This document shows, in pieces, positions 1 to 33,122 of a stretch of DNA of 33,122 bases (positions are counted from its first letter, which is position 1; every line of letters begins with the position of its first letter). Position numbers and translations under genes: made by a program. Below the pieces are notes generated by a model that was not told where the DNA came from, ran no database searches, and saw nothing but the letters and a program-made list of their open reading frames with translations. This stretch comes from a virus: positions 1 through 33,122 of the IMG/VR virus record IMGVR_UViG_3300035670_000818; one strand, 5' to 3'.

Positions 1-61
1 CCTTCCCGTCCACACGCGGAGGTATCACAAGTGGTTTTGATGACACGAATTGGATTTCCTG

Positions 62-148
62 ATGGGTAGCCCGTTCGCCTGGCTTGTGTTCGTGGTCACG
101 CCGGTCGTTGCCGTGCTGGCGCTTGTGCTTGTCGGTGGCTGCGTCTGA
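62..148 (+). CDS. possible 28-aa hydrophobic peptide
   Basis: A short ATG frame encodes a peptide that is almost entirely hydrophobic after the first few residues and could be one membrane-spanning helix ending in a Cys near the C-terminus. Its TGA overlaps the ATG of the terminase gene (TGATG), the junction type used elsewhere in this genome. No convincing ribosome binding site precedes the ATG. A separate 12-codon frame with a good GGAGG (GTG at 31, stop 67-69) overlaps it; that frame is also the continuation of the terminal HNH gene if the window ends are joined. The function is unknown and it may not be expressed. Confidence 0.3.
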   Translation: MGSPFAWLVFVVTPVVAVLALVLVGGCV

Positions 149-657
149 TGGGGGCGCGTGGGCCGAAGCCCAAGCCCGCTGAGGTGCGCAAGAAGGAGGG
201 CACTTACAAGCCGTCTGAGCATGGTGAGGTTGTTGTCATCGGCGGTCGCCCGGAGTCCATGCCCGCGCCGCAAAACCTGACACCGCATGAGGTCGCCATT
301 TGGGATGAGGTCGTACCGCCATTGCTCAGCGTGGGGTTGCTTGACCAGGTGGACACCTTCGCGCTTGAGGCGCTTGTGACCAACGTGGCCCGCTGGCGCG
401 AGGCCGAGGAGGCAGTCAAGCGCGACGGCATGTTGGTCATGGGCAGGTTTGACCAACCACAGGCGCACCCCGCCATTGCCATCGCGCAGAAGGCGCAAGC
501 GGAGTACCGCTCATGGTGCGCCAGGTTCGGGCTTAGCCCGAGCGACCGCATCGGGCTTGGCATGGCTGCCATCCGGTCGCGCTCGCTGAGTCAGGACTTG
601 GCCGAGCGCATCGGCCCGAGTCCGCGAGTCAAGGCGAAGGTGAACCTGAGTGAGTGA
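148..657 (+). CDS. terS: terminase small subunit, P27 family
   Basis: This 169-aa protein is recognised as a P27-type small terminase subunit, which binds the packaging site and recruits the large subunit to concatemeric DNA. The basic, proline-rich start (GARGPKPKP) is the usual N-terminus of the family. It is followed by the PxxLTPHEVAIWDEVVP-like helix and a helical oligomerisation region. The length is normal for the family. The ATG at 148 overlaps the upstream TGA. The gene sits at the left end of the rightward structural operon, and the large subunit follows after two small genes instead of directly. Confidence 0.88.
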   Translation: MGARGPKPKPAEVRKKEGTYKPSEHGEVVVIGGRPESMPAPQNLTPHEVAIWDEVVPPLLSVGLLDQVDTFALEALVTNVARWREAEEAVKRDGMLVMGRFDQPQAHPAIAIAQKAQAEYRSWCARFGLSPSDRIGLGMAAIRSRSLSQDLAERIGPSPRVKAKVNLSE

Positions 658-787
658 GGACGCACAGCAGCAGGACCGCATTGCGGCATGTCCGCGTTGC
701 GGCTGGTCCCCGGTCCCGCATGAGGTGTGCGGCGGCTGCGGGTGGAACGTCAATGAGGAAAGCACGGAGGCAAAGCATGGGCGCTGA
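650..787 (+). CDS. small zinc-ribbon protein (45 aa)
   Basis: This GTG-started frame overlaps the end of the small terminase gene and the start of ssb. It encodes 45 residues with two closely spaced cysteine knuckles (CPRCG and CGGCG, 10 residues between the pairs), the pattern of a treble-clef or rubredoxin-like zinc ribbon. A GAAGG lies about 10 bases before the GTG. It fills the only space between terS and ssb. A long alternative frame starting at 654 is simply an upstream extension of ssb without family sequence. The function is unknown; a DNA-binding or protein-docking role in packaging or single-strand handling is only a guess. It is too short for most gene callers. Confidence 0.5.
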   Translation: MSEDAQQQDRIAACPRCGWSPVPHEVCGGCGWNVNEESTEAKHGR

Positions 788-1196
788 TGTAAACGCGGTG
801 ACGCTGGTGGGCAGGCTGACGCGTGACCCGGAGGTGAGGGGCACCGGCAACGTGCTTGCCATGCGGCTCGCCTTCTCGGCCACGCGCAAGGACGGCGACG
901 AGTGGGTTGACGTGCCGCAGTACGTTGACGTTGTGACCTTCGGGCGCGGCGTGGAGGGACTGAGCAAGTTGCTCGGCAAGGGCGACCAGGTGGCCGTTGC
1001 CGGTCGCCTGTCCTGGCGCGAGTGGGAGGCCAACGACGGCAGCAAGCGGCAGTCACATGAGGTCGTGGCCGACCGCGTGCAGTTGCTCGCCAAGCCGCGT
1101 GACAAGCAGGACAGCACGCCATCGCCCGCGCCGCGTGACCCGGTGGCCGACGCGCCAGCGCCGCCGCTGCCCACCAACGATGACATTCCCTTCTAG
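777..1196 (+). CDS. ssb: single-stranded DNA-binding protein
   Basis: This 139-aa protein has the bacterial SSB OB-fold: N-terminal NAVTLVGRLTRDPEVR, then FSATRK and KGDQVAVAGRL strands, about residues 4-105, followed by a Pro/Ala-rich linker. It ends in the acidic-hydrophobic tip DDIPF that recruits replication and repair proteins. It coats single-stranded DNA during phage replication or recombination. The ATG at 777 is chosen because CGGAGG lies 7 bases upstream and the SSB homology begins there; the frame is open further 5' but without SSB sequence. Its place between the two terminase genes, inside the late operon, is unusual because ssb normally lies in the early replication region. Confidence 0.9.
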   Translation: MGADVNAVTLVGRLTRDPEVRGTGNVLAMRLAFSATRKDGDEWVDVPQYVDVVTFGRGVEGLSKLLGKGDQVAVAGRLSWREWEANDGSKRQSHEVVADRVQLLAKPRDKQDSTPSPAPRDPVADAPAPPLPTNDDIPF

Positions 1197-2699
1197 TTGG
1201 CGACGACCGCGCCCGACAAGCCCGCCGCGTTCCCAACACAGGGCGACCACTTTGCGGACTTTTGCCGTACCTACCTGCGGCACACCAAGGGCCGGTGGGC
1301 CGGGCAGCCTGTCGAACTTGAGCCGTTTCAACTCAACCTCATGCGCGAGGTGTTGCGGCTTGACCCCGACACCGGGCGGCGCGTTTACAGGACGTGCCTG
1401 GTTGGGCTGCCGAGGAAATCGGGCAAGTCAACACTTGCCTCAGCCCTCGGGCTGTATTTCCTGGTTGCCGATGGCGAGCCGGGCGCGGAGGTCATCATTG
1501 CCGCAGGCTCGCGTGAGCAGGCAAGCATTGTGTTTGACCAAGCGCGTGGCTTCGTGGAAACGTCGCCCCTGCTCGGGGACTTTTGCGACGCGCAGCGGTT
1601 CGTGATTCTCGGCCAGGACGGCGGGGTGATGAAGCGCATTGCCGCTGATGGTCGTTTGCAGCACGGGTTGAATCCGTCCGCCATCATCGCTGACGAGTTG
1701 CACGCATGGACGACGCCACGGCAGGAGGAGTTGTACGCGGCCCTGACCACGGGTTCCCATGCCCGTGAGGAGCCGCTTACGTTCATCATCACAACGGCGG
1801 GCTACGACAAGGCCACGGTCCTTGGGCGGCTGTATGACGAGGCCGTCAGGATGAACGAAGTTGAGCGGTCGCTTGGCTTGACCATCGCCCGCGATGAGCG
1901 TGCCGGGTTCCTCATGTGGTGGTACGGGCTGCGCGAGGATGAGCCAGCCGATGACGTGGAGTTGTGGGCGGCGGCGAACCCCGCGTCGTGGATTACGACC
2001 GAGGTGCTTGCGCAGCAGGCGGCGTCACCGACGCTGGACGAACTCGCGTTTAGACGCCTTCACCTCAACCAATGGACGAAGGCCCGAGACTCCTGGTTCC
2101 CGGCAGGCCAATGGGAGTCCTTGAAGTCCGGTGCCAAGATTCCTGACGGCGCTGACGTGTTCGTCGCCGTGGACGTTGGGCTTGTGCATGACACCACCGC
2201 CGTCGCCGTGGCGCACCGCGACGAGGATGGGCGCGTCATCGTGCGTGCCCGGGTGTGGGCTGCGCGTGATGATGCGGTCGCTCACCAGGTGTTGCCTGGC
2301 GGACGCGTTGACCTGTCGGTCGTGGAGGAACACATACGCGCCATCGCACAGCGGTTCCGCGTCGTGGAGTTGGTGTACGACCCGCGCTTTTTCGACAGGT
2401 CCGCCGACATGCTGGCGGGCGAGGGCATGACGGTCGCTCCGATTGAGCAGGGGTCACGCCGGATGCTTGAGGCGTACTCGCGTTTTCATACAGCCGTGAG
2501 TGAGGCTAGGGTGACGCATGACGGTGACAAGGTGTTGGCTCAGCATGTCGAAGCCGTCCAAGGTGTGATGACTGACAAGGGCTGGAAAATCAGCAGGGCC
2601 AGGAGCCAGCGCATTGACGCGGCGGTTGCGTGCGTCATGGCGCACTACCGGGCTGAGCGCAGCGACCCTGCTGAGTACGTCCTGTCGTGGGACGACTGA
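1197..2699 (+). CDS. terL: terminase large subunit
   Basis: This 500-aa packaging motor has an N-terminal ATPase with Walker A GLPRKSGKST at about residues 70-79 and Walker B IIADE at about 163-167. A C-terminal RNase H-like nuclease follows, with its first acidic residue in VAVDVG near residue 326 and further Asp residues in VYDPRF and near DAAVAC. It cuts and pumps phage DNA into the prohead through the portal. The start is TTG at 1197, immediately after the ssb stop and in the same frame. There is no clear Shine-Dalgarno, so expression may depend on re-initiation after ssb. No ATG or GTG would keep the conserved N-terminus. Confidence 0.93.
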   Translation: MATTAPDKPAAFPTQGDHFADFCRTYLRHTKGRWAGQPVELEPFQLNLMREVLRLDPDTGRRVYRTCLVGLPRKSGKSTLASALGLYFLVADGEPGAEVIIAAGSREQASIVFDQARGFVETSPLLGDFCDAQRFVILGQDGGVMKRIAADGRLQHGLNPSAIIADELHAWTTPRQEELYAALTTGSHAREEPLTFIITTAGYDKATVLGRLYDEAVRMNEVERSLGLTIARDERAGFLMWWYGLREDEPADDVELWAAANPASWITTEVLAQQAASPTLDELAFRRLHLNQWTKARDSWFPAGQWESLKSGAKIPDGADVFVAVDVGLVHDTTAVAVAHRDEDGRVIVRARVWAARDDAVAHQVLPGGRVDLSVVEEHIRAIAQRFRVVELVYDPRFFDRSADMLAGEGMTVAPIEQGSRRMLEAYSRFHTAVSEARVTHDGDKVLAQHVEAVQGVMTDKGWKISRARSQRIDAAVACVMAHYRAERSDPAEYVLSWDD

Positions 2700-3469
2700 T
2701 GCCAGCCGCGCTGGTCATCGGCTACGGCAGGCAGGGCAAGCGTCACGCTCGCGTGCTTGGCGGCATGGGCTTCGACGTTGACACGGTTGACCCTGTGGCC
2801 GAGGGCGCGACGTTCACCGACATGGGCGAGGCGCACGACAAGGACTACGACGCCGTTGCCGTGGCCGTGCCTATCCGGTCGCTGTCGCGCATCGCCATTG
2901 ACGCCATGTTCGATTTTGGCTCACCCGTGATGGTGGTGGAGAAGCCGCTTGGCGAAACCGCCGAGCAGGTTGCGCAGTTGGACAAGGCCGCGAAGTCAAC
3001 CGGCACCCTGGTCATCGCGGGCTACACCGAGCGGTACAACCCTGCGGTCATGCAGTTTGAGGCGATGCTTGCCGATGGCGACCGGCCCGGCGTCGTCCAT
3101 GTCGCGGCCCGGCGCTACTCCCCGGACGGTGGTGCGCCCGACGTTGACCCCATCATTGACCTTGGCGTGCATGACATTGACCTTGCCATCAGGCTCGCGC
3201 CTGGCGCGGTCACGCACGTTGACGCCGGGCAGGCACCGCACCGCTCGCGCACCTTCGTCACACTCCATGAGGACGGCAGCGCCACGGTCATTGACCTTGC
3301 CAACCGCATGGTGGACAACGAGGCCATTGACGGTGCTGAGCCGTTGGTGTCCCTGTGGGACTTCGCGCTTGGACACCCCCACGGGTATGTGTCCCTTGAG
3401 CATGAGGTTGACGTGATGCGCTGCGCGGAATACCTGATAGGTCACGCGGAGGACGTACCCGCCGCGTAA
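2699..3469 (+). CDS. Gfo/Idh/MocA-type NAD(P)-dependent oxidoreductase
   Basis: This 256-aa protein has an N-terminal Rossmann fold with GYGRQG at residues 8-13 and the family EKP motif at 81-83 (VVEKPLG). The C-terminal substrate domain includes DLGVHDID with the typical catalytic His at about 158. The family oxidises or epimerises sugars, nucleotide sugars or inositols; examples include UDP-GlcNAc 3-dehydrogenases. At 256 aa it is shorter than the usual 330-400, so the substrate domain is reduced. The ATG overlaps the terL stop (TGATG). Two glycosyltransferase-like genes follow, so a role in making or altering a sugar donor is inferred; the substrate cannot be told from sequence. Confidence 0.82.
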   Translation: MPAALVIGYGRQGKRHARVLGGMGFDVDTVDPVAEGATFTDMGEAHDKDYDAVAVAVPIRSLSRIAIDAMFDFGSPVMVVEKPLGETAEQVAQLDKAAKSTGTLVIAGYTERYNPAVMQFEAMLADGDRPGVVHVAARRYSPDGGAPDVDPIIDLGVHDIDLAIRLAPGAVTHVDAGQAPHRSRTFVTLHEDGSATVIDLANRMVDNEAIDGAEPLVSLWDFALGHPHGYVSLEHEVDVMRCAEYLIGHAEDVPAA

Positions 3470-3537
3470 AAAGTGCGCTATTAGCGGGGAAGTCGGAAGC
3501 GTTTATACGTCGGTTCCCACACAGCGGCGGTGAGTCA

Positions 3538-3555
3538 TGTATAACTCACTCCACA
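3538..3555 (+). promoter_or_regulatory. promoter-leader module P1
   Basis: This is a copy of the TGTATA-type module seen at four other places in the window. The -10-like TATAAC at 3540-3545 is followed by CACTCCA. About 35 bases further on come the shared leader words GGCACGGAGGCC and then the ATG at 3584. No good -35 box is visible, making it the weakest copy. It would let the 97-aa gene be expressed separately from the late operon around it. Confidence 0.5.
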
Positions 3556-3583
3556 AGGAACGACGGCACGGAGGCCGACCGAA

Positions 3584-3877
3584 ATGACCAGCATCACCGA
3601 AATCCGCTTCACCCGCATCAAGCCCGGCCTGTACGTCAGCAAGTGCGGACGTTACGAAATCGCCCGCACCATCTGGCACGACAACCCGGCACACACCGCA
3701 TGGGTTCCCTACCGCGTTGACGGTAGCGGCGGAGGCATCTATGACGGTCGCTTGACTGACCGCTACGGATGCCGACTGCTGGCCGACGCCAAGGCGGTAT
3801 GCCAGCGCGAGGAGCAGGTTGCCGACTTGGTTGACCGTTTCATGCAGCAGCCGACCACCATCAACGTCATCAAGTAG
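3584..3877 (+). CDS. hypothetical protein, 97 aa
   Basis: I do not recognise this protein. It is mixed alpha/beta by appearance: an N-terminal ITEIRFTRIKPGLYVSK strand region, a central glycine-rich turn (DGSGGGIYDG), and a helical C-terminus rich in Ala, Glu and Gln. There is no signal peptide or membrane segment. It has its own promoter module and a CACGGAGG ribosome site, and a hairpin follows it, so it looks like a separate expression unit dropped into the late operon (a moron arrangement). Its style (short, single domain, standard leader) resembles the small genes at 30-32 kb. It may be expressed early or from the prophage; that is inference from the promoter. Confidence 0.7.
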   Translation: MTSITEIRFTRIKPGLYVSKCGRYEIARTIWHDNPAHTAWVPYRVDGSGGGIYDGRLTDRYGCRLLADAKAVCQREEQVADLVDRFMQQPTTINVIK

Positions 3878-3902
3878 CAGCAGCCGACATAAGCAGGACG
3901 CG

Positions 3903-3923
3903 GGGGGCGCTATCAGCGCCCTC
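3903..3923 (+). terminator. hairpin after the 97-aa gene
   Basis: GGGCGCT at 3905-3911 pairs perfectly with AGCGCCC at 3915-3921 around a 3-base ATC loop, and two more outer pairs (one G-U) are possible. The tract that follows is only weakly T-rich (CCGTCGTTG). It separates the 97-aa gene from the next promoter. Confidence 0.55.
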
Positions 3924-3938
3924 CGTCGTTGTGGGCGC

Positions 3939-4620: not shown

Positions 4621-5384
4621 GAGTCATAGGACTGCTCAGTTGGTATGACGAGGCACCATCATGGCTGGCGTCAACGGTGGCGTCGGTCGCGCCGATGCTT
4701 GACCACCTGGTCGCCGTTGACGGGGCCTACGCGCTGTACCCGGACGGGCGTGCCCGGTCCGAGGCCATGCAGGCTGAGGTCATCATGCGGGCCTGCGATG
4801 GCGCGGGCATCGGACTGACGCTTCACCGACCGCAGGACCGCTGGCATGGCAACGAGACTGAGAAGCGCACCTATGCCTTCGCGCTCGCCAACGCCGAGGC
4901 CGAGGCCGGGCGCGATTGGGTATTTGTCATTGACGGTGACGACGTTGTGACCAACATCCCTGGCGACCTTCGGCCACGGCTCAAGGCCACCGAGCGCGAC
5001 GCTGCCGAGGTCACGCTATGGGAACGCGAAGCGTGGATTGAGGTCGCGCCCGAGGCAGCACAGGGCTTGCCGCTTCCGCCCGTCACTCGCATGAAGCAGC
5101 GCCGTCTATACCGGGCTGCCGACAGCATCAGCGTCACCGGGTCGCACTTTGTGTACCTCGCGCAGCGCGGCGAGGAATACTCATACCTGTGGGGGCCGAA
5201 CACGTTCCCGCTGGTTGAGGCAGCAGACTTGAGTGACCTTGAGGTCGAACACCGCACGCGTCACAGGGACCGTGCAAGGCGTGAGGCGGCGGCTGAGTAT
5301 TACCGTGTGCGTGATGCCCTCGGCATTGAGCAGACGGGGGGGCGCATGATGGAAACCGAGAACGGTGACAAGGTGGTCGTTTAG
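4617..5384 (+). CDS. glycosyltransferase-like protein with DGDD motif
   Basis: This 255-aa protein starts at TTG 4617, which overlaps the preceding TGA and has GGAGG about 10 bases upstream. The N-terminal strand RVIGLLSWYDEAPSWLASTV resembles the start of family-2 glycosyltransferases. VFVIDGDD at about residues 102-109 gives a DxD-type metal and nucleotide-sugar motif. The C-terminal half is charged and ends before the portal gene with a TAG/GTG overlap. Together with the upstream oxidoreductase and the first transferase it forms a compact sugar cassette in the head operon. Sequence does not show the donor or acceptor. A role in DNA-base glycosylation cannot be excluded, but no base-hypermodification enzyme is visible. 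Confidence 0.65.
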   Translation: MRVIGLLSWYDEAPSWLASTVASVAPMLDHLVAVDGAYALYPDGRARSEAMQAEVIMRACDGAGIGLTLHRPQDRWHGNETEKRTYAFALANAEAEAGRDWVFVIDGDDVVTNIPGDLRPRLKATERDAAEVTLWEREAWIEVAPEAAQGLPLPPVTRMKQRRLYRAADSISVTGSHFVYLAQRGEEYSYLWGPNTFPLVEAADLSDLEVEHRTRHRDRARREAAAEYYRVRDALGIEQTGGRMMETENGDKVVV

Positions 5385-6658
5385 TGGCGGACTTCCGCTG
5401 GCCGTGGCAGCGGGCCGAGGAGCCAAAGCCTGACAAGCCCGAGGAGCGGGCCGAGTGGGGCAGCAGCGCCATCCCGCTTCCCGGCATGGGTTACTTCTCC
5501 CTGACGGGCAGGCCGGTCAGTCCTGAGTCAGCGACCGGGCTGCCAGCGGTCACGGCTGCCATTCGGCTTGTCGCGGAGTCCATCGCGTCCATGCCGCTCA
5601 TCGTCTATGAGGGCCAGGGGCCGACCCGTGGCCGTGCATACGACACCGAGCAGTACCGCCTACTCCATGAAATGCCCAACGCCGACCAATCGCCTTTTGA
5701 CTTCATCAGCGATGTGGTCACGGCGCTTGAGGGTTTTGGCAACGCCTACATCCAGAAAATCAAGCGCAATGGGCGCGTGGTTGAACTCATCCCGATTGAC
5801 CCGGAAATGGTCTATGTGTACCGGGACCGCGACACGCATGAGCGCCGCTATGACGTGATTGTCGAAAGCAAGCGGGTCACCAAACTCACGCCGTCCGACA
5901 TTCTCCACATTCGGGGCATGACCCTGCGGGGTGGCCTGCTCGGCATGTCGCCCATCCAGGTTCACAAGAACGCGCTCGGCAACGCCGTCGCCATCTCGGA
6001 CTTCGTGAGCCGGTACTTCGCCAATGACGCAAGCCCCGGCCTGGCGCTCAAGATTCCCGGCCAGATTACGAGCCAGCAGGCCAAGAACATTCTTGAGATT
6101 TGGCAGTCATCGCACGGCGGCGTGATGAACGCGCACCGGCCTGCTGTGCTGGCGTCGGGGGCCGAACTTGACAAGGTGCCCATCACGCTTGAGGACGCAC
6201 TTGTCATTGAGGCGCAGCAGTACAACGTGCGCGAGGTGGCCCGCATTTTCAACGTGCCGCCCTCCCTGCTTGGAGCCGAGGGCACGACGAGTACCGCGTC
6301 AGCGCATGAGGAGGCTGACAGGTTTCTCAAGTTCAGCCTTGGTCCGCGACTGCGCAGAATTGAGTTGGCCTTCCGCGCTGACCCTGACCTGTTCGGTGGC
6401 ACGGAGTTGTTTCCCGAGTTCCTTGTTGACTCCCTGCTTCGCCCGGACACCTCCACCCGCTATCAGGCATACCTCATTGCCAGGCAAGCGGGCATCCTCA
6501 GCACAAACGAAATCCGCGAGTTGGAGAACCGCCCGCCCATTGAGGGCGGCGACAGCGTGCAGGTCACGCCGGTCGGTGGTGCCCCGAACTTGCAGCCCGG
6601 GGCCGAGCCGCCGCCAACCGAGCAGCCGCCCGTTGACCAGCCCGAGGAGGAGCAGTAG
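5384..6658 (+). CDS. portal protein, HK97 type
   Basis: This 424-aa protein has the HK97-type portal pattern. Examples are LPAVTAAIRLVAESIASMPL near residues 50-70, a central NAYIQKIKRNGRVVELIPIDP region, and VREVARIFNVPPSLLGAEG around 285-305. A Pro/Glu-rich C-terminal tail follows. The portal forms the dodecameric ring at one capsid vertex through which DNA is packaged and to which the tail attaches. GTG at 5384 overlaps the previous TAG. The maturation protease and major capsid protein follow, the normal HK97-like order; only the inserted sugar cassette separates the portal from the terminase. Confidence 0.93.
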   Translation: MADFRWPWQRAEEPKPDKPEERAEWGSSAIPLPGMGYFSLTGRPVSPESATGLPAVTAAIRLVAESIASMPLIVYEGQGPTRGRAYDTEQYRLLHEMPNADQSPFDFISDVVTALEGFGNAYIQKIKRNGRVVELIPIDPEMVYVYRDRDTHERRYDVIVESKRVTKLTPSDILHIRGMTLRGGLLGMSPIQVHKNALGNAVAISDFVSRYFANDASPGLALKIPGQITSQQAKNILEIWQSSHGGVMNAHRPAVLASGAELDKVPITLEDALVIEAQQYNVREVARIFNVPPSLLGAEGTTSTASAHEEADRFLKFSLGPRLRRIELAFRADPDLFGGTELFPEFLVDSLLRPDTSTRYQAYLIARQAGILSTNEIRELENRPPIEGGDSVQVTPVGGAPNLQPGAEPPPTEQPPVDQPEEEQ

Positions 6659-22652: not shown

Positions 22653-22685
22653 GTCAGCCCTCCGTGGCTGTGGTTGGTAGTGCAG

Positions 22686-22759
22686 TACCCGGGGCGGGAG
22701 TCGAACCCGCACTTGCATGAGTTTGAGTCATGTGCCTCTGCCAATTGGGCTACCCGGGC
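22686..22759 (-). tRNA. tRNA-Leu, anticodon CAA (short variable loop)
   Basis: The minus strand folds into a complete 74-nt cloverleaf. It has a 7-bp acceptor stem (one G-U at the end), a D arm with GG in the loop, a 5-bp anticodon stem CATGA/TCATG with loop CTCAAAC and anticodon CAA, a 5-nt variable loop, and a T arm GCGGG-TTCGACT-CCCGC with discriminator A73. CCA is not encoded. It reads UUG Leu codons, which are frequent in this genome. Bacterial leucine tRNAs normally have a long variable arm, which is missing here, so charging by the host LeuRS is not assured. The D arm has TAGCCC where TAGCTC is usual, matching the absence of AGCT. Confidence 0.88.
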
Positions 22760-23793: not shown

Positions 23794-24620
23794 CCATCAT
23801 CAACCGCAGCGTGGTCACCAGCAACAGCGACAAGTTGCGCACCGACTCCGACCGGGGCCGGTTGTACACATGGGGTGACGAGCAGTTTCGTTCAGTCACC
23901 ACCATTCTCAACGCACTCGGCAAGCCCTGGCTCGGCGCGTGGGCTGCCAAGATGGTCGCGGAGTACGCCTATGACCGACGCGACAAGTGGCACGACATGA
24001 CAAAGGCCGAAGCGGTGCGCTTGCTCAAGGGTGCGCCGTGGGAGAAGCGCGACGCGGCTGGCGACGTGGGCACGGCGGTACACAAGGCCATTGAGGCGCT
24101 TGTGCTTGGTCAGACGCCGCCGCCCTACCCGGACGACATTGCTGACCACATGGGCCACTTCAACAGGTTCCTCACCGACTACCAGCCCACCTGGTACGCG
24201 GCTGAGGCTGCGGTGTTCAGCCGCACGCATAAGTACGCGGGCACGCTTGACGGCATCGTCGGCATCGGTGACGCCACCTACATCATGGACGTCAAGACCA
24301 GCAAGGCCGTGTATCCCGACACCTACCCGTTGCAGTTGGCCGCGTATGCTCATGCCGAGTTCATCGGACTGCCTGACGGAACTGAGGCGAGCCTTCCCGC
24401 CATTGACGGCGGACTCATCCTTCACCTGACGGCGGGCGGTTATGAGGTCATCAGGGTCAGGATTGACGAGGCGGTGTTTCACTCATTCCTGTATGTGCTG
24501 GCCGCATACCGCTGGCAGCAGGACACATGCAAGTCGGCGCTGATGGGGCAGTTGCCCGTGCCGGTGAGCGCCGTGGTTGACAAGGCCAAGGCGGAACTTG
24601 GCGCGACGGTGGAGGACTGA
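23790..24620 (+). CDS. PD-(D/E)XK nuclease, RecB/Cas4-like
   Basis: This 276-aa protein has the RecB-family nuclease pattern: GTAVHKAIEAL (about 94-104), AAEAAVFS with the first acidic residue, GTLDGI (Asp154), IMDVKTSK (Asp167 and Lys169), and motif QLAAYAHAE (Gln182, Tyr186). It would act as a DNA exonuclease or endonuclease in recombination or genome processing. It is translationally coupled to the 41-aa gene and followed at once by the Gp3-like gene. No helicase domain is present. There are no clear four-cysteine iron-sulfur ligands, so it is RecB-like rather than a full Cas4. Confidence 0.85.
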   Translation: MTIINRSVVTSNSDKLRTDSDRGRLYTWGDEQFRSVTTILNALGKPWLGAWAAKMVAEYAYDRRDKWHDMTKAEAVRLLKGAPWEKRDAAGDVGTAVHKAIEALVLGQTPPPYPDDIADHMGHFNRFLTDYQPTWYAAEAAVFSRTHKYAGTLDGIVGIGDATYIMDVKTSKAVYPDTYPLQLAAYAHAEFIGLPDGTEASLPAIDGGLILHLTAGGYEVIRVRIDEAVFHSFLYVLAAYRWQQDTCKSALMGQLPVPVSAVVDKAKAELGATVED

Positions 24621-24621
24621 C

Positions 24622-25626
24622 ATGGGCATCATTGACCTTCAACGCCGCTTTGTGGAAATCGGGCGCATCCGTGCCGGTGCCAAGTCGGCCAAGGGCGCAC
24701 CAACCAAGTTGGAGAAGTGGCGGCTCACCTCGGCCAACAAGCCCGCGCTTGAGGCCGCTGCCGCCATCTACGGCGGCGAGGTGCAGCCGTGGGAGAACGG
24801 CCCCAACCTTGGGCTGTGGCAATTGTTCACCGAGTCGGACACGCTGCGCGTCCTGGTGCCGCCGTCCGCTGAGCCGTACTCGCTGTGGTACGAGGCGTGG
24901 TCAGGCGGCGGGTGCGACAAGCGGTGTGACGGGCAGCGCGACGTGTTGAACGACGCGCCGTGTTCGTGCGACCCGGACAACAGGGCGTGCAAGCCAACGC
25001 TGCGCGTGTCGCTGATGCTGCCCGACCTTCCGGGCTTGGGTGTGTGGAGGTGGGAGGGGCACGGCATAAACGCCGCGCTTGAACTGCCCGCCACGCTTGA
25101 CCTCCTGGCGCACGCGACCAGCAAGGGCGAGTTCCTTCCCGGCTACCTGCGCCTTGAGCAGCGCAGCACCAAGAAAAAGGGCGAGGGCACGCGCCGGTTC
25201 GCGGTGCCGGTCATTGACCTGACGGCGACCATTGGCGAGGTGACCAAGGCCATTGGCGGGCCTGCGATTCCCGACGCGCCCGCGCTGGAATCCGGCGAAC
25301 GCCCGGCGCTGCCCGCGCCGCAGGCTGATACATCGCCCGCGAACGAACTTGCGAGTACCGCTCAGAAGCGACTCATTTACGCGACCGCCAAGGAAGCGGG
25401 CGTTGACCGCGAGTTGGTCGGGCGGATTGCCGCGATGGTCACCAATCGTCACGGCGCAGGACTGAGCGAACTTGCCAAAGCCGACGTTGACGTTGTGGTT
25501 CGGTCCCTTGGACGGTTCGGCAATGACGTGGCAGGGTCCACGGCCAAGTTGGAGGCATGGGAGGCGGCGCAGTCGCAGGCGGACGGCGACGCGTGGGGGC
25601 CAACCCCGCCCATCCCGTCCGCGTGA
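24622..25626 (+). CDS. Gp3-like protein (recombination directionality factor family)
   Basis: The 334-aa product matches the phiC31 Gp3-like family pattern: GIIDLQRRFVEIGRIRAG at the start, then LEAAAAIYGGEVQPWENGP, LWYEAWSGGGCDKRCDG with a Cys-rich part (CSCD, then CKP), MLPDLPGLGVWRWEGHGINAA, and LEQRSTKKKGEGTRRFAVPVID. In phiC31 this factor switches the serine integrase to excision. Here the integrase is a tyrosine enzyme, so the protein may instead have a general DNA role. The C-terminal 100 residues (ASTAQKRLIYATAKEAGVD, then LAKADVDVVVRSLGRF) are an added helical domain like those on phage recombination proteins. Confidence 0.8.
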   Translation: MGIIDLQRRFVEIGRIRAGAKSAKGAPTKLEKWRLTSANKPALEAAAAIYGGEVQPWENGPNLGLWQLFTESDTLRVLVPPSAEPYSLWYEAWSGGGCDKRCDGQRDVLNDAPCSCDPDNRACKPTLRVSLMLPDLPGLGVWRWEGHGINAALELPATLDLLAHATSKGEFLPGYLRLEQRSTKKKGEGTRRFAVPVIDLTATIGEVTKAIGGPAIPDAPALESGERPALPAPQADTSPANELASTAQKRLIYATAKEAGVDRELVGRIAAMVTNRHGAGLSELAKADVDVVVRSLGRFGNDVAGSTAKLEAWEAAQSQADGDAWGPTPPIPSA

Positions 25627-25634
25627 GGGGTGCC

Positions 25635-25810
25635 GTGAGCGAGTTCCTAACCGTCAACGAGGCCGCTGCCAGGCTCGGCGTGCATCCGGTCACCGTGCGC
25701 AGGCACATACGCGCCGGGACCATCCGGGCCGTGCAGGTCGGGCGTGCTTGGCGCATCCCTGCGGCGGCGCTCAGCGATGGCTTCGGCCATCAGGTCAACC
25801 GGCCCGGTGA
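25635..25810 (+). CDS. excisionase-type HTH reading frame, 3' end unclear
   Basis: GTG 25635 follows GAGGGG and lies 8 bases after the Gp3-like stop. The first 52 codons give a clear excisionase/MerR-type winged HTH: FLTVNEAAARLGVHPVTVRRHIRAG followed by VQVGRAWRIPAAAL. Such proteins bind attachment sites and bend DNA for excision, or repress. The frame has no stop until 26886-26888 and runs through the whole integrase gene on the opposite strand, codon against codon. The end at 25810 is therefore only where recognisable sequence stops (it coincides with a TGA in another frame). Either the product is very long, or a stop has been lost, or there is a sequence error. Confidence 0.6.
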
Positions 25811-26810
25811 GCCGCACGTCCTCAAGAACGTGGGCGTAGGTGTCAAGGGTCATGCTGGCCGAGGCGTGCCCCAAGGCGGCGCTGACCGCGTGTACCGGGC
25901 GGCTGTACAGCATCAGGGTCGCGTAGGTGTGCCGCAGGTCGTATGGGACAGCGGTGACCTGCGCCTGCTCGCAGGCCCGCCGCCATTCGCGGCGCACGAA
26001 GTTGCGCCACACAAGCAGGCCCCCGCGTACCCCGGGGACGACGATGCCGCGACGCTGGCCGCGTGGCACATGCTCAAAATCGTCGCCAAGCGGTTGCTCA
26101 ATGGGGACTGCCCTGATGCGGCGTGTCTTGGTCGGGACAACCTGGCCGAACTGCGCCGAGCGGTCAACGATGATGCTGGCGGCGGTCACGTTTTCCCACA
26201 CAAGCCCGACCACCTCAGCGGGCCGCAGTCCCGCGTAGGCCAGCAGGCTTACGATGAGGCGGTCACGCGGGCATGTCATTGCCTTGCGAATGTCCTCCAC
26301 CTCGCGCACGGTCAGCGCACGGGGACGCGTGCGGAAGGCGGGCAGGGAACGGATGCCTGCCGCTGGATTGCCGGGGACAAGCCCCTCATCCACGGCACGC
26401 CCGAGGGCAGCCGACAGGACGGCCATGACGGCGTTGACGGTGCTGGCGCTTGCCTGGCTGGCGAGGTGGTCCCGGTACTCGCGCACGCGGGCGGGGCCGA
26501 ACTCGCGCAGCGGGACATGGCCGACATGGGCAACGACGTGCTTGGTCAGAATCCATCGGCGTTGGCGGCGGGTGGTTTCGGACCACCCCGGCCCGTAGCG
26601 GTCCTGCCAGCGGTCAAGCCAATCGGCCAGCGTGTCGGCGGTGGCAAGGACGGGCGCGAAGGCCCCGAGTTCCCTGCGGCGCAGCCGGTCAGCCTCAAAG
26701 GCAACGGCGGCGTCGTAGGTGCGGAAGTTGCGGCCACGGGCCTTGCCGCCCTCCCGCCAACGGACCCGCCAGGTTTCCCGGTTCGCGTCCGGGCGTCGCT
26801 CAATGCTCAC
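25647..26810 (-). CDS. int: tyrosine site-specific integrase
   Basis: This 387-aa integrase has an N-terminal arm-binding region (about 1-55), a core-binding SAM-like domain (about 56-150, with LADWLDRWQDRYG and SASTVNAVMAVLSAAL), and a catalytic domain. The catalytic residues are Arg196 (AGLRPAE), Arg293 (YDLRHTY; the box II His is Tyr, as in many actinophage enzymes), His315 (LGHAS) and Tyr325 (DTYAH). It joins attP to the host attB. The last 47 residues beyond the catalytic fold are antisense to the HTH gene and Pro/Gly-rich, so they are probably passenger sequence. The start is GTG 26810 with a promoter 3-10 bases upstream, giving an almost leaderless mRNA. Confidence 0.93.
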   Translation of the reverse strand: MSIERRPDANRETWRVRWREGGKARGRNFRTYDAAVAFEADRLRRRELGAFAPVLATADTLADWLDRWQDRYGPGWSETTRRQRRWILTKHVVAHVGHVPLREFGPARVREYRDHLASQASASTVNAVMAVLSAALGRAVDEGLVPGNPAAGIRSLPAFRTRPRALTVREVEDIRKAMTCPRDRLIVSLLAYAGLRPAEVVGLVWENVTAASIIVDRSAQFGQVVPTKTRRIRAVPIEQPLGDDFEHVPRGQRRGIVVPGVRGGLLVWRNFVRREWRRACEQAQVTAVPYDLRHTYATLMLYSRPVHAVSAALGHASASMTLDTYAHVLEDVRLTGPVDLMAEAIAERRRRDAPSTPDLHGPDGPGAYVPAHGDRMHAEPGSGLVDG

Positions 26811-26931: not shown

Positions 26932-26971
26932 TGGGCGCTCGGGGAATCGAACCCCGGACCTCCAACTTGTC
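26932..26971 (-). other. attP: attP core: 3' half of tRNA-Val(GAC)
   Basis: Read on the minus strand, 40 bases from GACAAG to GCGCCCA are the 3' half of a tRNA: anticodon GAC, the 3' anticodon stem, variable loop AGGTC, T arm CGGGG-TTCGATT-CCCCG, acceptor strand AGCGCCC and A73. The base at position 33, which must be T in a real tRNA, is C, and no 5' half is present, so identity to a host gene should begin at the anticodon. This is the classic attP design that restores the host tRNA after integration. It lies 122 bases upstream of the integrase start. Confidence 0.82.
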
Positions 26972-29245: not shown

Positions 29246-29433
29246 GCGGCGTGGTGAAGGTGACCACGCGCACCCCCGTTGACCTGACCATCCTGCGGGA
29301 CAAGGTGGCCCGTGGCGAGCGTGTCACGCAAGCCGAGTGCCTACGGATGCAGGAACTTGAGCGATGGCTTGGTTGGCGCATCGGCCAGGAGTTGAACGAG
29401 GTGCCCACAGACGACCACTTCCCGATGCCGTGA
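29242..29433 (+). CDS. hypothetical protein, 63 aa
   Basis: ATG 29242 overlaps the previous stop; GTGA at the 3' end couples it to the replication protein. It is a short helical protein (LTILRDKVARGERVTQAECLRMQELERWLGW) with an acidic tail. I do not recognise it. Its position directly in front of the initiator suggests a replication-related role, such as a loader partner, but that is only context. Confidence 0.65.
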   Translation: MSGVVKVTTRTPVDLTILRDKVARGERVTQAECLRMQELERWLGWRIGQELNEVPTDDHFPMP

Positions 29434-30197
29434 AGTGGCTTAGGTGGGATGCCAACGCCAGCAGCAACCCCAAGTTGCTGAGCGTCCGGGCTGACGGCAT
29501 GTTCCTGTACCTGCGGGGCCTTGAGTATTGCGCCGCGCATGAGACTGACGGCCTCATTCCCCGCGAGGTGGTGCCGTCATTGGTGGCTGACTTCTCCACA
29601 ATCGGCCTGTGGATAACTCAGCCCAAGCGTGCGCAAGTGTCCGCCAAGTGTCCGCCAAGTGTCCCAGGTGTCACGGGACAGTCACGCGTGACACAGCGTG
29701 ACATGGTTGACGATGCAAGCAATGATGACGACACCGGGGAACTCTCCAAGCAGGCCCACGACCGTCGCCGCAGGCGGCTGGTGCAACGCCTGGTTGACGC
29801 CGGGCTATGGCACGAAACCCCGCACGGCTACGAGGTAAACGACTACCTCCAATACCAGCCTGAGCGCACCGAGATTGCCGAGCGCGACGAGCGCCGCAAG
29901 GCCAAGGCCCGCGAGCGCAAGCGCCGCCAACGGGCAAACCAAAGTGTCCGCGAAGTGTCCGCCAAGTGTCCAAATGTCACGCATGTCACGCCTTATACAA
30001 AACGGGGTTACTCCTTACGGAGTAACCCCCAAGTAGGGCGTGACGCGAACAGCGGCGGCACCCCCGCCCTTGAGGGGGCGGGTGCGCCTGTCGCGCCGAT
30101 GGACGAAACACCAACTGCTGATGTGGGTGCGGTCATTGACGAGCATGGGCCACAGGCAATCATCAAGCGCCTGGCCGACGCGAAGCGCATGACGTGA
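29430..30197 (+). CDS. replication initiator-like winged-helix protein containing the origin
   Basis: GTG 29430 gives a 255-aa protein. The N-terminus (KWLRWDANASSNPKLLSV, then LYLRGLEYCAAHETDGLIPREVV) and LVQRLVDAGLWHETPHGYEVNDYLQYQPER (about 117-146) are the two halves of the winged-helix domain of actinophage replication proteins. A basic RKAKARERKRRQRAN helix follows. A Ser/Asp-rich insertion of about 55 residues splits the domain. Two GTGTCCG repeat clusters, a dyad and an 11-bp hairpin lie inside the gene, as in lambda O. Both clusters encode VSAKCP in the same frame. The protein probably binds those repeats and recruits a host helicase; no helicase is encoded here. Confidence 0.68.
   Translation: MKWLRWDANASSNPKLLSVRADGMFLYLRGLEYCAAHETDGLIPREVVPSLVADFSTIGLWITQPKRAQVSAKCPPSVPGVTGQSRVTQRDMVDDASNDDDTGELSKQAHDRRRRRLVQRLVDAGLWHETPHGYEVNDYLQYQPERTEIAERDERRKAKARERKRRQRANQSVREVSAKCPNVTHVTPYTKRGYSLRSNPQVGRDANSGGTPALEGAGAPVAPMDETPTADVGAVIDEHGPQAIIKRLADAKRMT
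29637..29694 (+). repeat. iteron cluster I with inverted repeats
   Basis: GTGTCCG, GTGTCCG and GTGTCCC start at 29637, 29648 and 29659 (11-bp period), followed by GTGTCAC at 29668. That last copy is the left arm of GTGTCACG (29668-29675) paired with CGTGACAC (29687-29694). The perfect palindrome GTCACGCGTGAC occupies 29681-29692. The cluster is in the insertion that splits the initiator's winged-helix domain. Confidence 0.72.
29944..29989 (+). repeat. iteron cluster II
   Basis: GTGTCCG, GTGTCCG and GTGTCCA start at 29944, 29955 and 29966 (11-bp period), followed by ATGTCAC at 29974 and 29983. The order (three 11-bp units, then TGTCAC units) repeats cluster I 307 bp away. It is followed by the AT-richer CCTTATACAAAAC and the hairpin at 30004. 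Confidence 0.72.
30004..30029 (+). repeat. 11-bp perfect hairpin beside iteron cluster II
   Basis: GGGGTTACTCC (30004-30014) pairs with GGAGTAACCCC (30019-30029) around a TTAC loop. It lies inside the initiator coding region, so it is unlikely to be a terminator for that gene. Next to iterons and an AT-rich stretch it fits an origin structural element or a single-strand priming hairpin. Confidence 0.65.
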
Positions 30198-30205
30198 GTT
30201 GGCAC

Positions 30206-30244
30206 TTGCGCTGTCCGTGGGGTGGTGTATAGTCCCCTCCATCA
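30206..30244 (+). promoter_or_regulatory. promoter-leader module P4
   Basis: TTGCGC (30206-30211), a 16-bp spacer and TATAGT (30228-30233) form a good promoter, followed by CCCCTCCATCA and the leader GGCACGGAGGCC before ATG 30275. A minimal ATG-ACA-TGA frame at 30270 overlaps that start, as at 23663. Confidence 0.75.
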
Positions 30245-30274
30245 CAGCAACGTCAAGGCACGGAGGCCAATGAC

Positions 30275-30610
30275 ATGAGCATGACCATCAAGATGCCCGG
30301 CAAGTTCCGCGATTGGATGAGCGGCACCGGGATAGCGCAGGGGCAGGTTGACGACGACCAGGCGAGCCGTCACTTGGCGGACGCGTGGCAGCGGGTCACT
30401 TGGACGCGAGCAGGGCGCGGCGTATCCGGTGTCATCGTTCTTGACGACCGCGCTGCGGTCGCGGTGCTGGCCGAGTACGCCGATGCGGGCGTTGCGCAGA
30501 ACGCGGACGGAACAGGCTGCCCGGCTGAGGCACGAGCCAGCGCACAGGTGTTGAAGCGTTGCCAAGTGGCGCTTGAGGAGAGCGCCGAGCGCGAGGCGGT
30601 GGCGGCATGA
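30275..30610 (+). CDS. hypothetical protein, 111 aa
   Basis: This is the first gene after promoter P4. It starts MSMTIKMPGKFRDWMSGTGIA; the middle has QASRHLADAWQRVTWTRAGRGVSGVIVLDDRAAVAVLAEYADAG, split here by no clear motif, and a helical C-terminus rich in Glu and Ala. An alternating beta/helix pattern is visible. I do not recognise a family. It heads a run of five overlapping small genes to 31533. Confidence 0.7.
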   Translation: MSMTIKMPGKFRDWMSGTGIAQGQVDDDQASRHLADAWQRVTWTRAGRGVSGVIVLDDRAAVAVLAEYADAGVAQNADGTGCPAEARASAQVLKRCQVALEESAEREAVAA

Positions 30611-31005
30611 TTCGCCAGGACGGCATTGAGGTTGGCGAGTGGTACAGGGGGCGTGAGTTCGCCTACACCACCAACGCTGACGGCGACTACAGCGCCCGCC
30701 CCGTTGACGAGTGGCTTGAGGCTACCTACCCGGAGCGCACGCGTAACGCGCTTGCACATGTGCGTGTCGTGGTCCGCGAGAGCGGTAGCAGCAGCCGCAA
30801 GTATTGGCTTGCCCGCTGCGGCAGGCATGAGGGCCACGGCGAGACTCGCAACGCCGCCGTGTACATGGCATACGCCGAGTACGTCAGGCGCACCATGCGG
30901 ACGCGGGTGCTGCCGCTTGAGTATTCCAACGGCACGCTGACGTGGCCTGACGAGACTTGGCAGGAGCGCCACGCCCGCCAGCAGCGCGAGGAGGTCACGG
31001 CATGA
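30607..31005 (+). CDS. hypothetical protein, 132 aa
   Basis: ATG 30607 overlaps the preceding stop. The protein is mixed alpha/beta (IEVGEWYRGREFAYTTNADGD, then HVRVVVRESGSSSRKYWLARCGRHEGHGETRN), ending with a charged helix (TWQERHARQQREEV). One His/Cys group (CGRHEGHGE) could bind metal but is not a standard motif. The function is unknown. The gene is part of the P4 operon. Confidence 0.7.
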   Translation: MIRQDGIEVGEWYRGREFAYTTNADGDYSARPVDEWLEATYPERTRNALAHVRVVVRESGSSSRKYWLARCGRHEGHGETRNAAVYMAYAEYVRRTMRTRVLPLEYSNGTLTWPDETWQERHARQQREEVTA

Positions 31006-31106
31006 GCGAGCGCAACCGTTCCCTGTTCTGGCAGGCGGTCGGCAAGGCCGGGGCTGCGGAGTGCCCCCGCCTTGCCGGGTGCTACCTCAAGGCGGTGAAG
31101 GCATGA
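31002..31106 (+). CDS. very small protein, 34 aa
   Basis: ATG 31002 overlaps the previous TGA and its own TGA overlaps the next ATG, the exact coupling used by its neighbours, which is the main reason to believe it is a gene. It encodes a helical basic peptide (RNRSLFWQAVGKAG) with two Cys (CPRLAGC). GAGGAGG lies 9 bases upstream. It is shorter than usual gene-calling limits. Confidence 0.5.
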   Translation: MSERNRSLFWQAVGKAGAAECPRLAGCYLKAVKA

Positions 31107-31357
31107 GCATCATGGACGATGCCAACGAGGTCGTTGACAACCTCATCCTTGCCAGGGCCGCGCTTGAGCGCATGAGGGATGACGTACACCACGGCACCGA
31201 TGAGTGCGGCCCCGCGTGCGCGGACTATCACGACGCGATGCGGGCGGTGTCGCACGCGGCTGAGGCGGTCGGGCTTCCGGTGCGTGAGTTGGTGCGCGAA
31301 GCGCGGATACTCAACGGCGTCCCGTTCCCACTCCTCCCGAGCGCGGGACGGCGATGA
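31103..31357 (+). CDS. hypothetical helical protein, 84 aa
   Basis: ATG 31103 is chosen from the overlap with the 34-aa gene; a longer frame from 31061 adds nothing recognisable. It is mostly helical (ANEVVDNLILARAALERMRDD, then CADYHDAMRAVSHAAEAVG), with His, Cys and Asp in the loop (HHGTDECGPAC) that could hold a metal. It is coupled to the next gene. I do not recognise a family. Confidence 0.65.
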   Translation: MSIMDDANEVVDNLILARAALERMRDDVHHGTDECGPACADYHDAMRAVSHAAEAVGLPVRELVREARILNGVPFPLLPSAGRR

Positions 31358-31533
31358 TGGACCGTGAGAGCGTCATGCTCAGCATTGAGCGCCAGCAGCG
31401 TAGGTGGGAGAAGGACGACGCCGAGCGGCGCAGGGTCGCTGACCAGCAGTACAGCAAGGGCGTGCCCAAGCGTGTGATTGCTGACCTGTTCCGCCAGGCG
31501 GCGAAGCGTCACAAGAACTTGCGCGACGCCTAG
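31354..31533 (+). CDS. small basic helical protein, 59 aa
   Basis: ATG 31354 overlaps the previous stop (TGA at 31355-31357). The 59-aa product is a long charged helix (SVMLSIERQQRRWEKDDAERRRVADQQ) and a second helix (KRVIADLFRQAAKRHKN), suggestive of a dimeric DNA- or RNA-binding protein. The TTGCGC -35 box of promoter P5 is formed by its Leu-Arg codons near the C-terminus. Confidence 0.6.
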   Translation: MMDRESVMLSIERQQRRWEKDDAERRRVADQQYSKGVPKRVIADLFRQAAKRHKNLRDA

Positions 31534-31558
31534 CGCATCTGTATAGTCACTTCCATCA
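31519..31558 (+). promoter_or_regulatory. promoter-leader module P5
   Basis: TTGCGC (31519-31524), a 17-bp spacer and TATAGT (31542-31547), then CACTTCCATCA and leader words CCACGGAGGGC before ATG 31590. It is the best promoter in the window by spacing and match to the other copies. Confidence 0.8.
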
Positions 31559-31589
31559 CGTCAACGAGTCAGCCACGGAGGGCAGACCA

Positions 31590-31892
31590 ATGAGCAGGGA
31601 AGCAGACAGCATGGAACTCGGACAGGACACCTACGCACGCGGCGCATACGCACGGCTTGTGCTGCGCGGCGATGATGGCAAGCGCATCACCAGGTACGTC
31701 AAGGTTGCCCGCGAGTCGGCGGACGGGCTGTGCATCGGTGAGCGCGTGACCAAGGACGGCAACAGGTGGGAACGCGAGACTTCCACGGCGGTACAGGTCG
31801 GCGTTGTCGCATGGATGGCGTCTGACGTCATCAAGCGCACCGACCTGCGGCTGTCAATGCGGTACGCAACGCTTGTGGAGGTGTCGGCATGA
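31590..31892 (+). CDS. hypothetical protein, 100 aa
   Basis: First gene after P5. It is largely beta by appearance (ARGAYARLVLRGDDGKRITRYVKVARES, then DGLCIGERVTKDGNRWERE), with a C-terminal segment MRYATLVEVSA. It could be a small OB- or SH3-like protein. No family is recognised. It is coupled to the 72-aa gene by ATGA. Confidence 0.68.
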   Translation: MSREADSMELGQDTYARGAYARLVLRGDDGKRITRYVKVARESADGLCIGERVTKDGNRWERETSTAVQVGVVAWMASDVIKRTDLRLSMRYATLVEVSA

Positions 31893-32107
31893 ACCCCCGA
31901 CGCACGGCATGGCACACATGCAGCGATGGCACCAAGGTCATGTTGTTCGTGCAGCGTGTGGACTACTCGCCAATGAACAGGTGGGAGGCCGAACCTGTCA
32001 GGGGCAATGACGAGCCGTATGCGTCACGCGCTCGGCGCACGGGACGTACTCGGGAGGACGCGCTTGAGGCAGCAGCCGAGGCGTGGCTTGAGTTGGTCAA
32101 CGCATGA
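31889..32107 (+). CDS. hypothetical protein, 72 aa
   Basis: ATG 31889 overlaps the previous stop. An N-terminal beta region (AWHTCSDGTKVMLFVQRVDYS) is followed by RARRTGRTREDALEAAAEAWLELV, a helix typical of small double-stranded RNA-binding-like or DUF folds. Nothing allows a function call. Its stop overlaps the next ATG. Confidence 0.65.
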   Translation: MNPRRTAWHTCSDGTKVMLFVQRVDYSPMNRWEAEPVRGNDEPYASRARRTGRTREDALEAAAEAWLELVNA

Positions 32108-32331
32108 GCGCGTGCCCGGTGTGCAGCGAGGCAGCCAGGTACGCGGGCAAGTCGGATGAGTGCAGGCGTGCTGATGAGGTCATGGCCGCGTTTGAGGCGT
32201 TGCCTGACACGCTTGAAAAGGCAGCCATGCGCGACATGGTTGAGGACTTGGTGAGCATGGTGAAGCACGCTGATGAGGATGCGCTACGCGGGTGGCTGGC
32301 ATCCGACATGACCATTGACGACGACGACTGA
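32104..32331 (+). CDS. small acidic protein with an N-terminal CxxC, 75 aa
   Basis: Begins MSACPVCSEAARYAGKSDEC, giving a Cys pair and a third Cys that might bind metal. The rest is strongly acidic and helical (ALPDTLEKAAMRDMVEDLVSMV) and ends in Asp residues. High acidity in a phage early protein is compatible with DNA mimicry or with binding a host enzyme; this is speculative. Confidence 0.62.
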   Translation: MSACPVCSEAARYAGKSDECRRADEVMAAFEALPDTLEKAAMRDMVEDLVSMVKHADEDALRGWLASDMTIDDDD

Positions 32332-32341
32332 GGTGGTGGGT

Positions 32342-32545
32342 ATGGCAGCAGCACAGAACAGGCGCACGGTGCGTGCGCTGGTCAAGGCGGACGCGGACTA
32401 CCGCAAGGCGCGAGCCAGGCGGCGGACGTTGATGCTTGACGCCGTGAACGATGGTGCGCCGGTCAGCGACGTTGCCAAGGCGGCGAACGTCACCCGCGAT
32501 GCGGTGTACAAGTTGGTGCAGGCAAGCAGGCGTGAGGGTCGCTAG
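32342..32545 (+). CDS. small HTH DNA-binding protein, 67 aa
   Basis: ATG 32342 follows GAGGTGGTGGG. A basic N-terminal helix (KADADYRKARARRRTLML) precedes a helix-turn-helix (VSDVAKAANVTRDAVYKLVQASR, about residues 40-62), similar to resolvase-type or sigma-like HTH units. It may regulate the early promoters or help packaging. It is the last gene of the P5 operon; a strong hairpin follows at 32610. Confidence 0.68.
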   Translation: MAAAQNRRTVRALVKADADYRKARARRRTLMLDAVNDGAPVSDVAKAANVTRDAVYKLVQASRREGR

Positions 32546-32609
32546 TGTTGCCCTGCCCGCACGCACATACCGCGTGCCGTGGCCGGTCATACCTCCGTGC
32601 GACCGAAGG

Positions 32610-32641
32610 CAGCCCCGGGGTCATGGTGCGCCCCGGGGCTG
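32610..32641 (+). terminator. 11-bp hairpin at the end of the early operon
   Basis: CAGCCCCGGGG (32610-32620) pairs perfectly with CCCCGGGGCTG (32631-32641) around a 10-base loop, followed by TCGTCATTG. It shares the GCCCCGGGG core with the hairpins at 21930 and 22765. It separates the early operon from the HNH gene. The rest of 32546-32669 holds no gene. Confidence 0.72.
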
Positions 32642-32657
32642 TCGTCATTGCGTGGGC

Positions 32658-32669
32658 TACGCTGCCAGC
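32658..32669 (+). promoter_or_regulatory. leaderless-type promoter for the HNH gene
   Basis: -10-like TACGCT (32658-32663) is followed by GCCAGC and then by ATG 32670, exactly where transcription should start. The same words and order occur before the glycosyltransferase-like gene at 3952. There is no visible ribosome binding site, which fits leaderless translation, common in actinobacteria. Confidence 0.5.
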
Positions 32670-33122
32670 ATGAGCGTGCTGTCCACCATCTGCCTTGACT
32701 GCGGTGACCTGGTTGGTGCCGCCCGTGATGGTCGCTGTGCGCGGTGCTGGCCGGTGTGGAATGAACACAGGCGCAGGCGTCGTGCCGAGTACGAGCGCAG
32801 GCATGTGCGCACGCGAAGCCCCGAGGGGCAGCGCACCAGGGATGCACACCGGGCCATCATCAACACCGTGCGGTGGCAGCGCATCGCCAAGCAGGTGAAG
32901 CGCCGCGATGGGTTCGCGTGTACCGAGTGCGGTGCGACGGCTGACCTGACGGTGCATCACGTCAACCCGGCCCGCTTCGCTGAGAACCCCTACGACGCCG
33001 ACAACTGCGTCACCCTATGCCGTAGGTGTCATGGACGCGCTGAGGCCCGTACACGGCGTGTGAGAGCGTCACAGGGCGTGTTGCACAGGGGGGGGGCATC
33101 AAGCACGCAAGGGGGGCTAGAC
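32670..33122 (+). CDS. HNH endonuclease, runs off the window
   Basis: The ATG-started frame is open to the last base (151 codons). An N-terminal zinc knuckle (CLDCG, then CARCW, residues 8-27) is followed by a basic helix and an HNH domain: CTECG (84-88), LTVHHVNP (His96/His97), Asn112, and CRRCHGR (117-123) with the final His121. HNH enzymes next to terminases are needed for cos cleavage in several HK97-like phages. If the window ends are joined, the frame stops at 67-69. A run of nine G near 33088-33096 lies after the domain; one G fewer would give a stop at 33118-33120, so the true end is uncertain. Confidence 0.88.
   Translation, partial: MSVLSTICLDCGDLVGAARDGRCARCWPVWNEHRRRRRAEYERRHVRTRSPEGQRTRDAHRAIINTVRWQRIAKQVKRRDGFACTECGATADLTVHHVNPARFAENPYDADNCVTLCRRCHGRAEARTRRVRASQGVLHRGGASSTQGGLD

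Follow-up and report, generated by a model that had tools for sequence, protein, structure and literature searches.

Restriction-site avoidance is a textbook anti-restriction strategy, and the phage genome described here raises the question of how far such avoidance can go and what drives it. The window, by which we mean the whole stretch of DNA that was analysed, corresponds to a 33,122-bp virus record of IMG/VR and has a GC content of 64.6%. In a scripted count neither GATC nor AGCT was found once, as the original prediction, made from the sequence alone, had claimed; base composition gives an expectation of 108 for each, in line with the approximately 110 that it had named. Maximal-order Markov expectations are 73 for GATC and 90 for AGCT. 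Synonymous-codon shuffling, which preserves every protein and the codon usage of the 44 predicted genes, yielded on average 99 ± 8 GATC and 99 ± 7 AGCT (n = 1000), with minima of 72 and 82, respectively.

Other tetramer palindromes, namely GTAC, CATG, TGCA, GGCC, GCGC and CTAG, occur in the window, and the coding traces that had been described could be recovered as well. Isoleucine after a G-ending codon is written 52 times as ATT, seven times as ATA and never as ATC; leucine after an AG-ending codon is TTG in 48 of 49 cases, compared with 80 of 693 elsewhere; the serine codon AGC is never followed by T in the genes of the window; and the phage tRNA (GGGTAGCCCAATTGG) carries TAGCCC instead of TAGCTC. 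TTG is the sole common leucine codon that avoids AGCT after an AG-ending codon, and the tRNA-Leu(CAA) of the phage could be conceived as a compensation for these forced codons. This remains an idea, since no such tRNA was seen in the available sequence of the AGCT-free relatives.

By its gene order, with TerS at the left end and an HNH-like fragment at the right end, the genome appears to be near-complete. Structural genes comprise TerS, TerL, portal, protease, capsid and tail tube; in addition, the window encodes Mre11-like and further exonucleases, a Gp3-like recombination directionality factor (RDF), an Xis-like HTH protein, a tyrosine integrase and a RuvC-like resolvase. A tailed and probably temperate phage is suggested by the integrase, the RDF-like and Xis-like genes and the tRNA attP core. 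The Xis-like HTH frame (25557-25840, plus strand) nearly wholly overlaps the C-terminal end of the integrase (25647-25830, minus strand); either two genes converge and overlap here, or a stop has been mis-set. No methyltransferase domain was detected in the 56 open reading frames of the window, including with PF00145, PF01555 and PF02086, although hypermodification of bases may offer the phage DNA another kind of protection. A megablast search of 50,697 phage records with positions 1-25000 returned no close DNA match.

Features of the phage genome that bear on site loss, lifestyle and the search for relatives
Feature	Position	Strand	Remark
Whole phage genome	1..33122	.	GATC, AGCT and about 43 further motifs absent or nearly so
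Terminase large subunit	1197..2699	+	Query for relatives
Portal protein	5384..6658	+	Query for relatives
tRNA-Leu(CAA)	22685..22759	-	Reads TTG; TAGCCC replaces TAGCTC
Recombination directionality factor-like protein (Gp3-like)	24577..25626	+	Pfam PF18897, E 1.5e-37
Tyrosine integrase	25647..26810	-	Pfam Phage_integrase, E 8e-16; temperate lifestyle marker
attP-like core, 3' half of tRNA-Val(GAC), adjoins integrase	26932..26971	-	Sequence read directly

A count of palindromes against Markov expectation, which the original prediction had proposed, confirmed the loss and showed that a genome emptied of "two palindromic tetramers" was wrong in scale, as at least 42 motifs have been erased. TTAA and ATAT, both at zero, and TCGA, with 23 of 98 expected sites, had been overlooked, and the loss extends to most hexamer palindromes and to many sites that are gapped, degenerate or non-palindromic. 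Of the hexamer palindromes, 51 of 64 are missing and 13 occur, with 89 sites observed against 746 expected; GCGCGC (0 of 60 expected), CGCGCG (0 of 59), GCCGGC (0 of 52), CGGCCG (0 of 50), GGCGCC (0 of 45) and CCGCGG (0 of 37) are examples. Within genes there are 72 hexamer palindromes, compared with 573 ± 24 in synonymous shuffles. We then define as near-absent any motif observed at 5% or less of an expectation of at least 10. The search space comprised every word of four to six bases, 3+N+3 palindromes with a gap, and the Biopython set of restriction sites, with overlaps removed greedily. By this measure 45 independent motifs are near-absent from the window (32 in its first 21 kb alone); 32 of the 45 are exact entries in the Biopython enzyme list, and 42 fall below every one of 200 synonymous shuffles. 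The total shortfall amounts to approximately 1,331 expected sites. Half of all positions in the window are one substitution away from an erased site, and 21% of sampled single substitutions would restore one.

The same measure gives 0-6 near-absent motifs in other viral or prophage loci, counting those of 12 kb or more that lie outside this phage group, as well as 8 in T7, 5 in phage K, 9 in R4, 11 in Helicobacter phage KHP30 (two of which are known sites) and 44 in the halovirus HF2. The number of erased motifs in the window is thus about that of the most extreme virus compared. The Streptomyces phages phiC31 and TG1 score 29 and 25, mostly words without a listed enzyme, and their hexamer palindromes stand at 0.85 and 0.77 of expectation; since the Markov null over-calls in these genomes, the window was additionally assessed by shuffles and by hexamer totals. 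In their first 33,122 positions (L128, L129) both are short of many non-palindromic words, such as GCGGCC in phiC31 (3 of 73 expected) and CGCAG in TG1 (6 of 121), which mostly are not listed enzyme sites and could reflect codon structure or defence.

The footprints are as exact as those of enzymes. In scans of spacer length, GACN3GTC, GACN4GTC and GACN5GTC are each absent against about 15 expected, while GACN6GTC occurs 18 times; GCAN5TGC is absent (0 of 18 expected) and its neighbours GCAN4TGC and GCAN6TGC occur 21 times each; and CCAN5TGG and CCAN8TGG are reduced to one site each of 11 expected, with 19 copies each of CCAN7TGG and CCAN9TGG. Degenerate sets such as GTMKAC (the AccI set), GWGCWC, YACGTR, RGGWCCY and CTGRAG are wholly gone, non-palindromic members included, and GRGCYC is gone save for one site. 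Near neighbours stand at normal level, as seen for GTCAAC (64 observed, 51 expected), GGGCAC (39, 30), AACGTC (30, 22), CAATG (95, 92), ATTGG (49, 47) and ACCGGC (62, 56). Palindromes per se are not avoided, because CCCGGG (21 versus 15 expected) and TGCGCA (29 versus 19 expected) are retained. Erased non-palindromic words include CACTG, ACTGG, CCCAG, CTGAAG and CAGAG. Altogether, the erased words match Type II specificities down to degeneracy and spacer length, and it is these tests that carry weight; matching to named enzymes is weak, because nearly every hexamer palindrome has an enzyme. We know of no process besides the sequence-specific recognition of foreign DNA that leaves such marks.

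About a dozen of the erased motifs have no matching enzyme in the Biopython list; specificities of this kind are CGCGCG, CCGNCGG, CCCAG, GGTCGA, GCTCCC and CCTGAA, as well as GCGGAC in relatives. GCGGAC is nearly absent from G403/G404 (L117-L120) and G407/G408 (L122-L124), with 2 of 55, 0 of 55, 2 of 53 and 1 of 22 expected sites, and is missing from HF2 (L127; 0 of 22), while its level in the window is normal (49 of 43). Without a match in the enzyme list, it is a candidate for an undescribed recognition site.

Relatives were gathered by portal, TerL and exonuclease searches of IMG/VR, and kinship among the contigs was judged from a table of gene identities. In 15 related contigs including the window (290 kb), AGCT is observed 4 times against 706 expected and GCCGGC 0 times against 474, with GTAC and GGCC at normal levels. 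Another 25 relatives (239 kb) hold 1262 AGCT (926 expected) and 581 GCCGGC (349 expected). The AGCT-free state does not track the descent of head genes. Contigs L015, L017, L021 and L089 carry capsid and connector genes like those of the window, one connector being 68-70% identical, and are normal in AGCT; G407 and G408 are AGCT-free and have lysin, minor-tail and exonuclease genes in common with the window, and no TerL, portal or capsid shared with it was detectable in either. This independence of head-gene descent fits a host-linked cause.

The losses of GATC and AGCT have different histories. Loss of AGCT is common to the whole guild, whereas only the window and a short contig, L107 (0 of 17 expected), have lost GATC completely; GATC stands at 20 of 51 in G001 and 26 of 55 in G408, and is fully normal in G002-G004. 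Where the window and G001 can be aligned (16.5 kb, 79% DNA identity), CCWGG occurs 44 times in the former and never in the latter, and GATC 0 and 14 times, respectively; 13 of the 14 GATC sites of G001 lie one substitution from the window sequence, and both genomes contain GTAC, GGCC and CATG, with many sites in common. Every lineage adds its own accessory motif list to the joint losses of AGCT and GCCGGC, and motif sets as well as codon usage differ strongly among related phages.

One group of relatives, G002-G004 (L004-L006 and L084-L088; portal 75% identical), has a further peculiarity. Its observed/expected ratio for CA/TG is 0.35-0.44, compared with 1.27 in the window, GA/TC and CG are in excess, and the avoidance crosses codon boundaries, with TG at positions 3-1 at about 10 per 1000 versus 109. 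We know of no cause for this avoidance. The relative G004 (L006) was recovered from a metagenome of South San Francisco Bay (3300044674; PMC11334935).

Very probably, many restriction-modification systems, mostly of Type II, have purged this genome by long cumulative selection. We base this on the absences themselves, on their enzyme-like exactness and on their distribution among relatives; the agents we infer to be host endonucleases, and the hosts to be shared among these phages. Each unmodified site would carry a risk of cleavage on entry, so that point mutations that remove a site, many of them synonymous, would be retained, and at least 42 recognition motifs, or about 1,300 expected sites, would come to stand at zero or near zero. 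Since the phage has no recognisable methyltransferase, it would survive by offering nothing to cut. Systems that cut AGCT and GCCGGC would be those common across the host guild, and those directed at GATC, CCWGG, CTCGAG and other sites would be gained and lost between lineages. The original prediction had proposed long selection by restriction in a phage without its own methyltransferase. This part of it is well supported by the enzyme-exact footprints, the lineage-specific turnover and the lack of a match to any methyltransferase family; its restriction to two tetramers did not hold.

The phage would have met these systems either in a single host population that is heavily armed or in several hosts. 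That the list accumulated across many host species with few systems each is possible, and we entertain it tentatively. The strong differences in motif sets and codon usage between related phages are in its favour, as is the fact that AGCT and GCCGGC alone are common to all, although the tRNA-directed integrase suggests a limited range. In the search for the host, a portal-alignment scan of the genome collection gave a single match, 54% identical, in a Ca. Nanopelagicales MAG that is normal in AGCT. The tRNA-Val attB core was absent from the actinobacterial genomes searched: 396 genomes of the phylum of this MAG lacked it at one mismatch or fewer, and 148 genomes of its class lacked a 29-base core.

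Other forms of sequence-specific immunity, such as Dnd phosphorothioation or mismatch repair acting on GATC and BREX or Type III/IIG systems acting on non-palindromic words, are improbable as the general cause. Several of the erased words are indeed non-palindromic, CAGAG is a Type III site that phages avoid (PMC6286503), and the lack of GATC in phiX174 has been linked to mismatch repair (PMC5014478). Yet the majority of losses follow Type II patterns, either palindromic or gapped-palindromic, and mismatch repair cannot account for AGCT and GCCGGC. Such immunity probably holds for part of the motif list only: Type III or BREX-like systems may be behind some non-palindromic losses, and causes of the Dnd or mismatch-repair type may apply to GATC alone.

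It is very unlikely that a nuclease of the phage itself cuts AGCT and other sites and has forced their loss. The genome does encode exonuclease- and RuvC-like proteins and the HNH-like end fragment, but the Mre11-like exonuclease is 67% identical in G409, which is normal in AGCT, no RuvC was detected in the AGCT-free G407, and more than 40 specificities lie beyond any one nuclease. No nuclease gene tracks the AGCT-free state among these incomplete contigs, and we reject this candidate as one that does not fit. Equally hard to credit is that mutation bias, codon usage or the composition of the host removed these words as a side effect. Composition does differ strongly among the relatives, and in phiC31 and TG1 the Markov null does over-call. 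Yet shuffles that preserve proteins and codons still predict about 99 AGCT and 99 GATC, CCCGGG, TGCGCA and GTAC are retained, the losses hinge on spacer length and single letters, and the loss of AGCT is equal in relatives of very different composition. We reject composition and codon bias on these grounds, and likewise a general avoidance of palindromes.

Three relatives carry DNA methyltransferase genes of the N6/N4 or C5 families, located in G403 (C1:3068-4300; L117), G404 (C1:5283-5741; L119) and G409 (C1:23335-24177; L126). Of these, G409 is normal in AGCT. The three hint at methylation and site erasure as alternative answers to restriction, and the small number of genomes allows no more than a hint.

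Complete or almost complete site avoidance has been reported for about one in ten viral genomes (PMC6286503), where elimination mostly concerns non-temperate phages and orthodox Type II rather than Type IIG sites (Rusinov et al., 2018, PMC6286503). In accord with that survey, the window belongs to a dsDNA phage without its own methyltransferase and has mainly lost orthodox Type II sites; it differs in that it bears an integrase and lacks more than 40 motifs, CTGAAG/CTGGAG-type words included. The presence of integrase and attP counts against our preferred explanation, as temperate phages seldom eliminate sites in the published survey, and the window departs from this non-temperate trend, which is statistical and no strict criterion.

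Some words are also lost in T7 (GATC, 4 of 116 expected), Staphylococcus phage K (GATC, 0 of 69) and Streptomyces phage R4 (CTCGAG, 0 of 32), but these have only 5-9 near-absent motifs each, against the 45 of the window. TerL and portal of phiC31 and TG1 are about 33% identical to those of the window, and GCCGGC and CCGCGG are also rare in these phages; unlike the window, they are rich in GATC (93 and 144 copies) and AGCT (107 and 85 copies). Closest in degree is the HF1 group of haloviruses (HF1, HF2 and HRTV-7), archaeal myoviruses most of which have an N-6 methylase gene (PMC7230728). They have completely lost GATC and CTAG (HRTV-7 also AGCT) and many hexamers (PMC7230728), while AGCT persists in HF2 (140 copies in 33 kb) and CTAG in the window (21 copies). 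The likeness is limited to site loss, and positions 1-25000 of the window had no megablast match in a phage collection that contains HF2. In the literature searched, no closer precedent was found than the HF1 group and the survey of Rusinov et al. (PMC6286503). What is new is that erasure reaches an HF1-like degree in a bacterial phage that is presumably temperate, and that its shared core and fast-turning accessory set can be read by comparison.

That a 33-kb phage equipped with a lysogeny module has erased more than 40 motifs runs counter to the published trend for temperate phages, and the purge points to hosts armed with many restriction enzymes. Because spacer length and degeneracy are preserved in the footprints, genomes of this kind could reveal the restriction systems of uncultured hosts and link phages to shared hosts. 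Phages with unrelated head genes that have jointly lost AGCT and GCCGGC bear a host signature that can be tested directly. We speculate, with some reserve, that the erased motifs record, in readable form, the pan-restriction repertoire of a guild of uncultivated hosts, and that a guild of integrase-bearing phages would have exchanged methylation for near-total erasure, with AGCT and GCCGGC as a fixed core and an accessory set that turns over fast.
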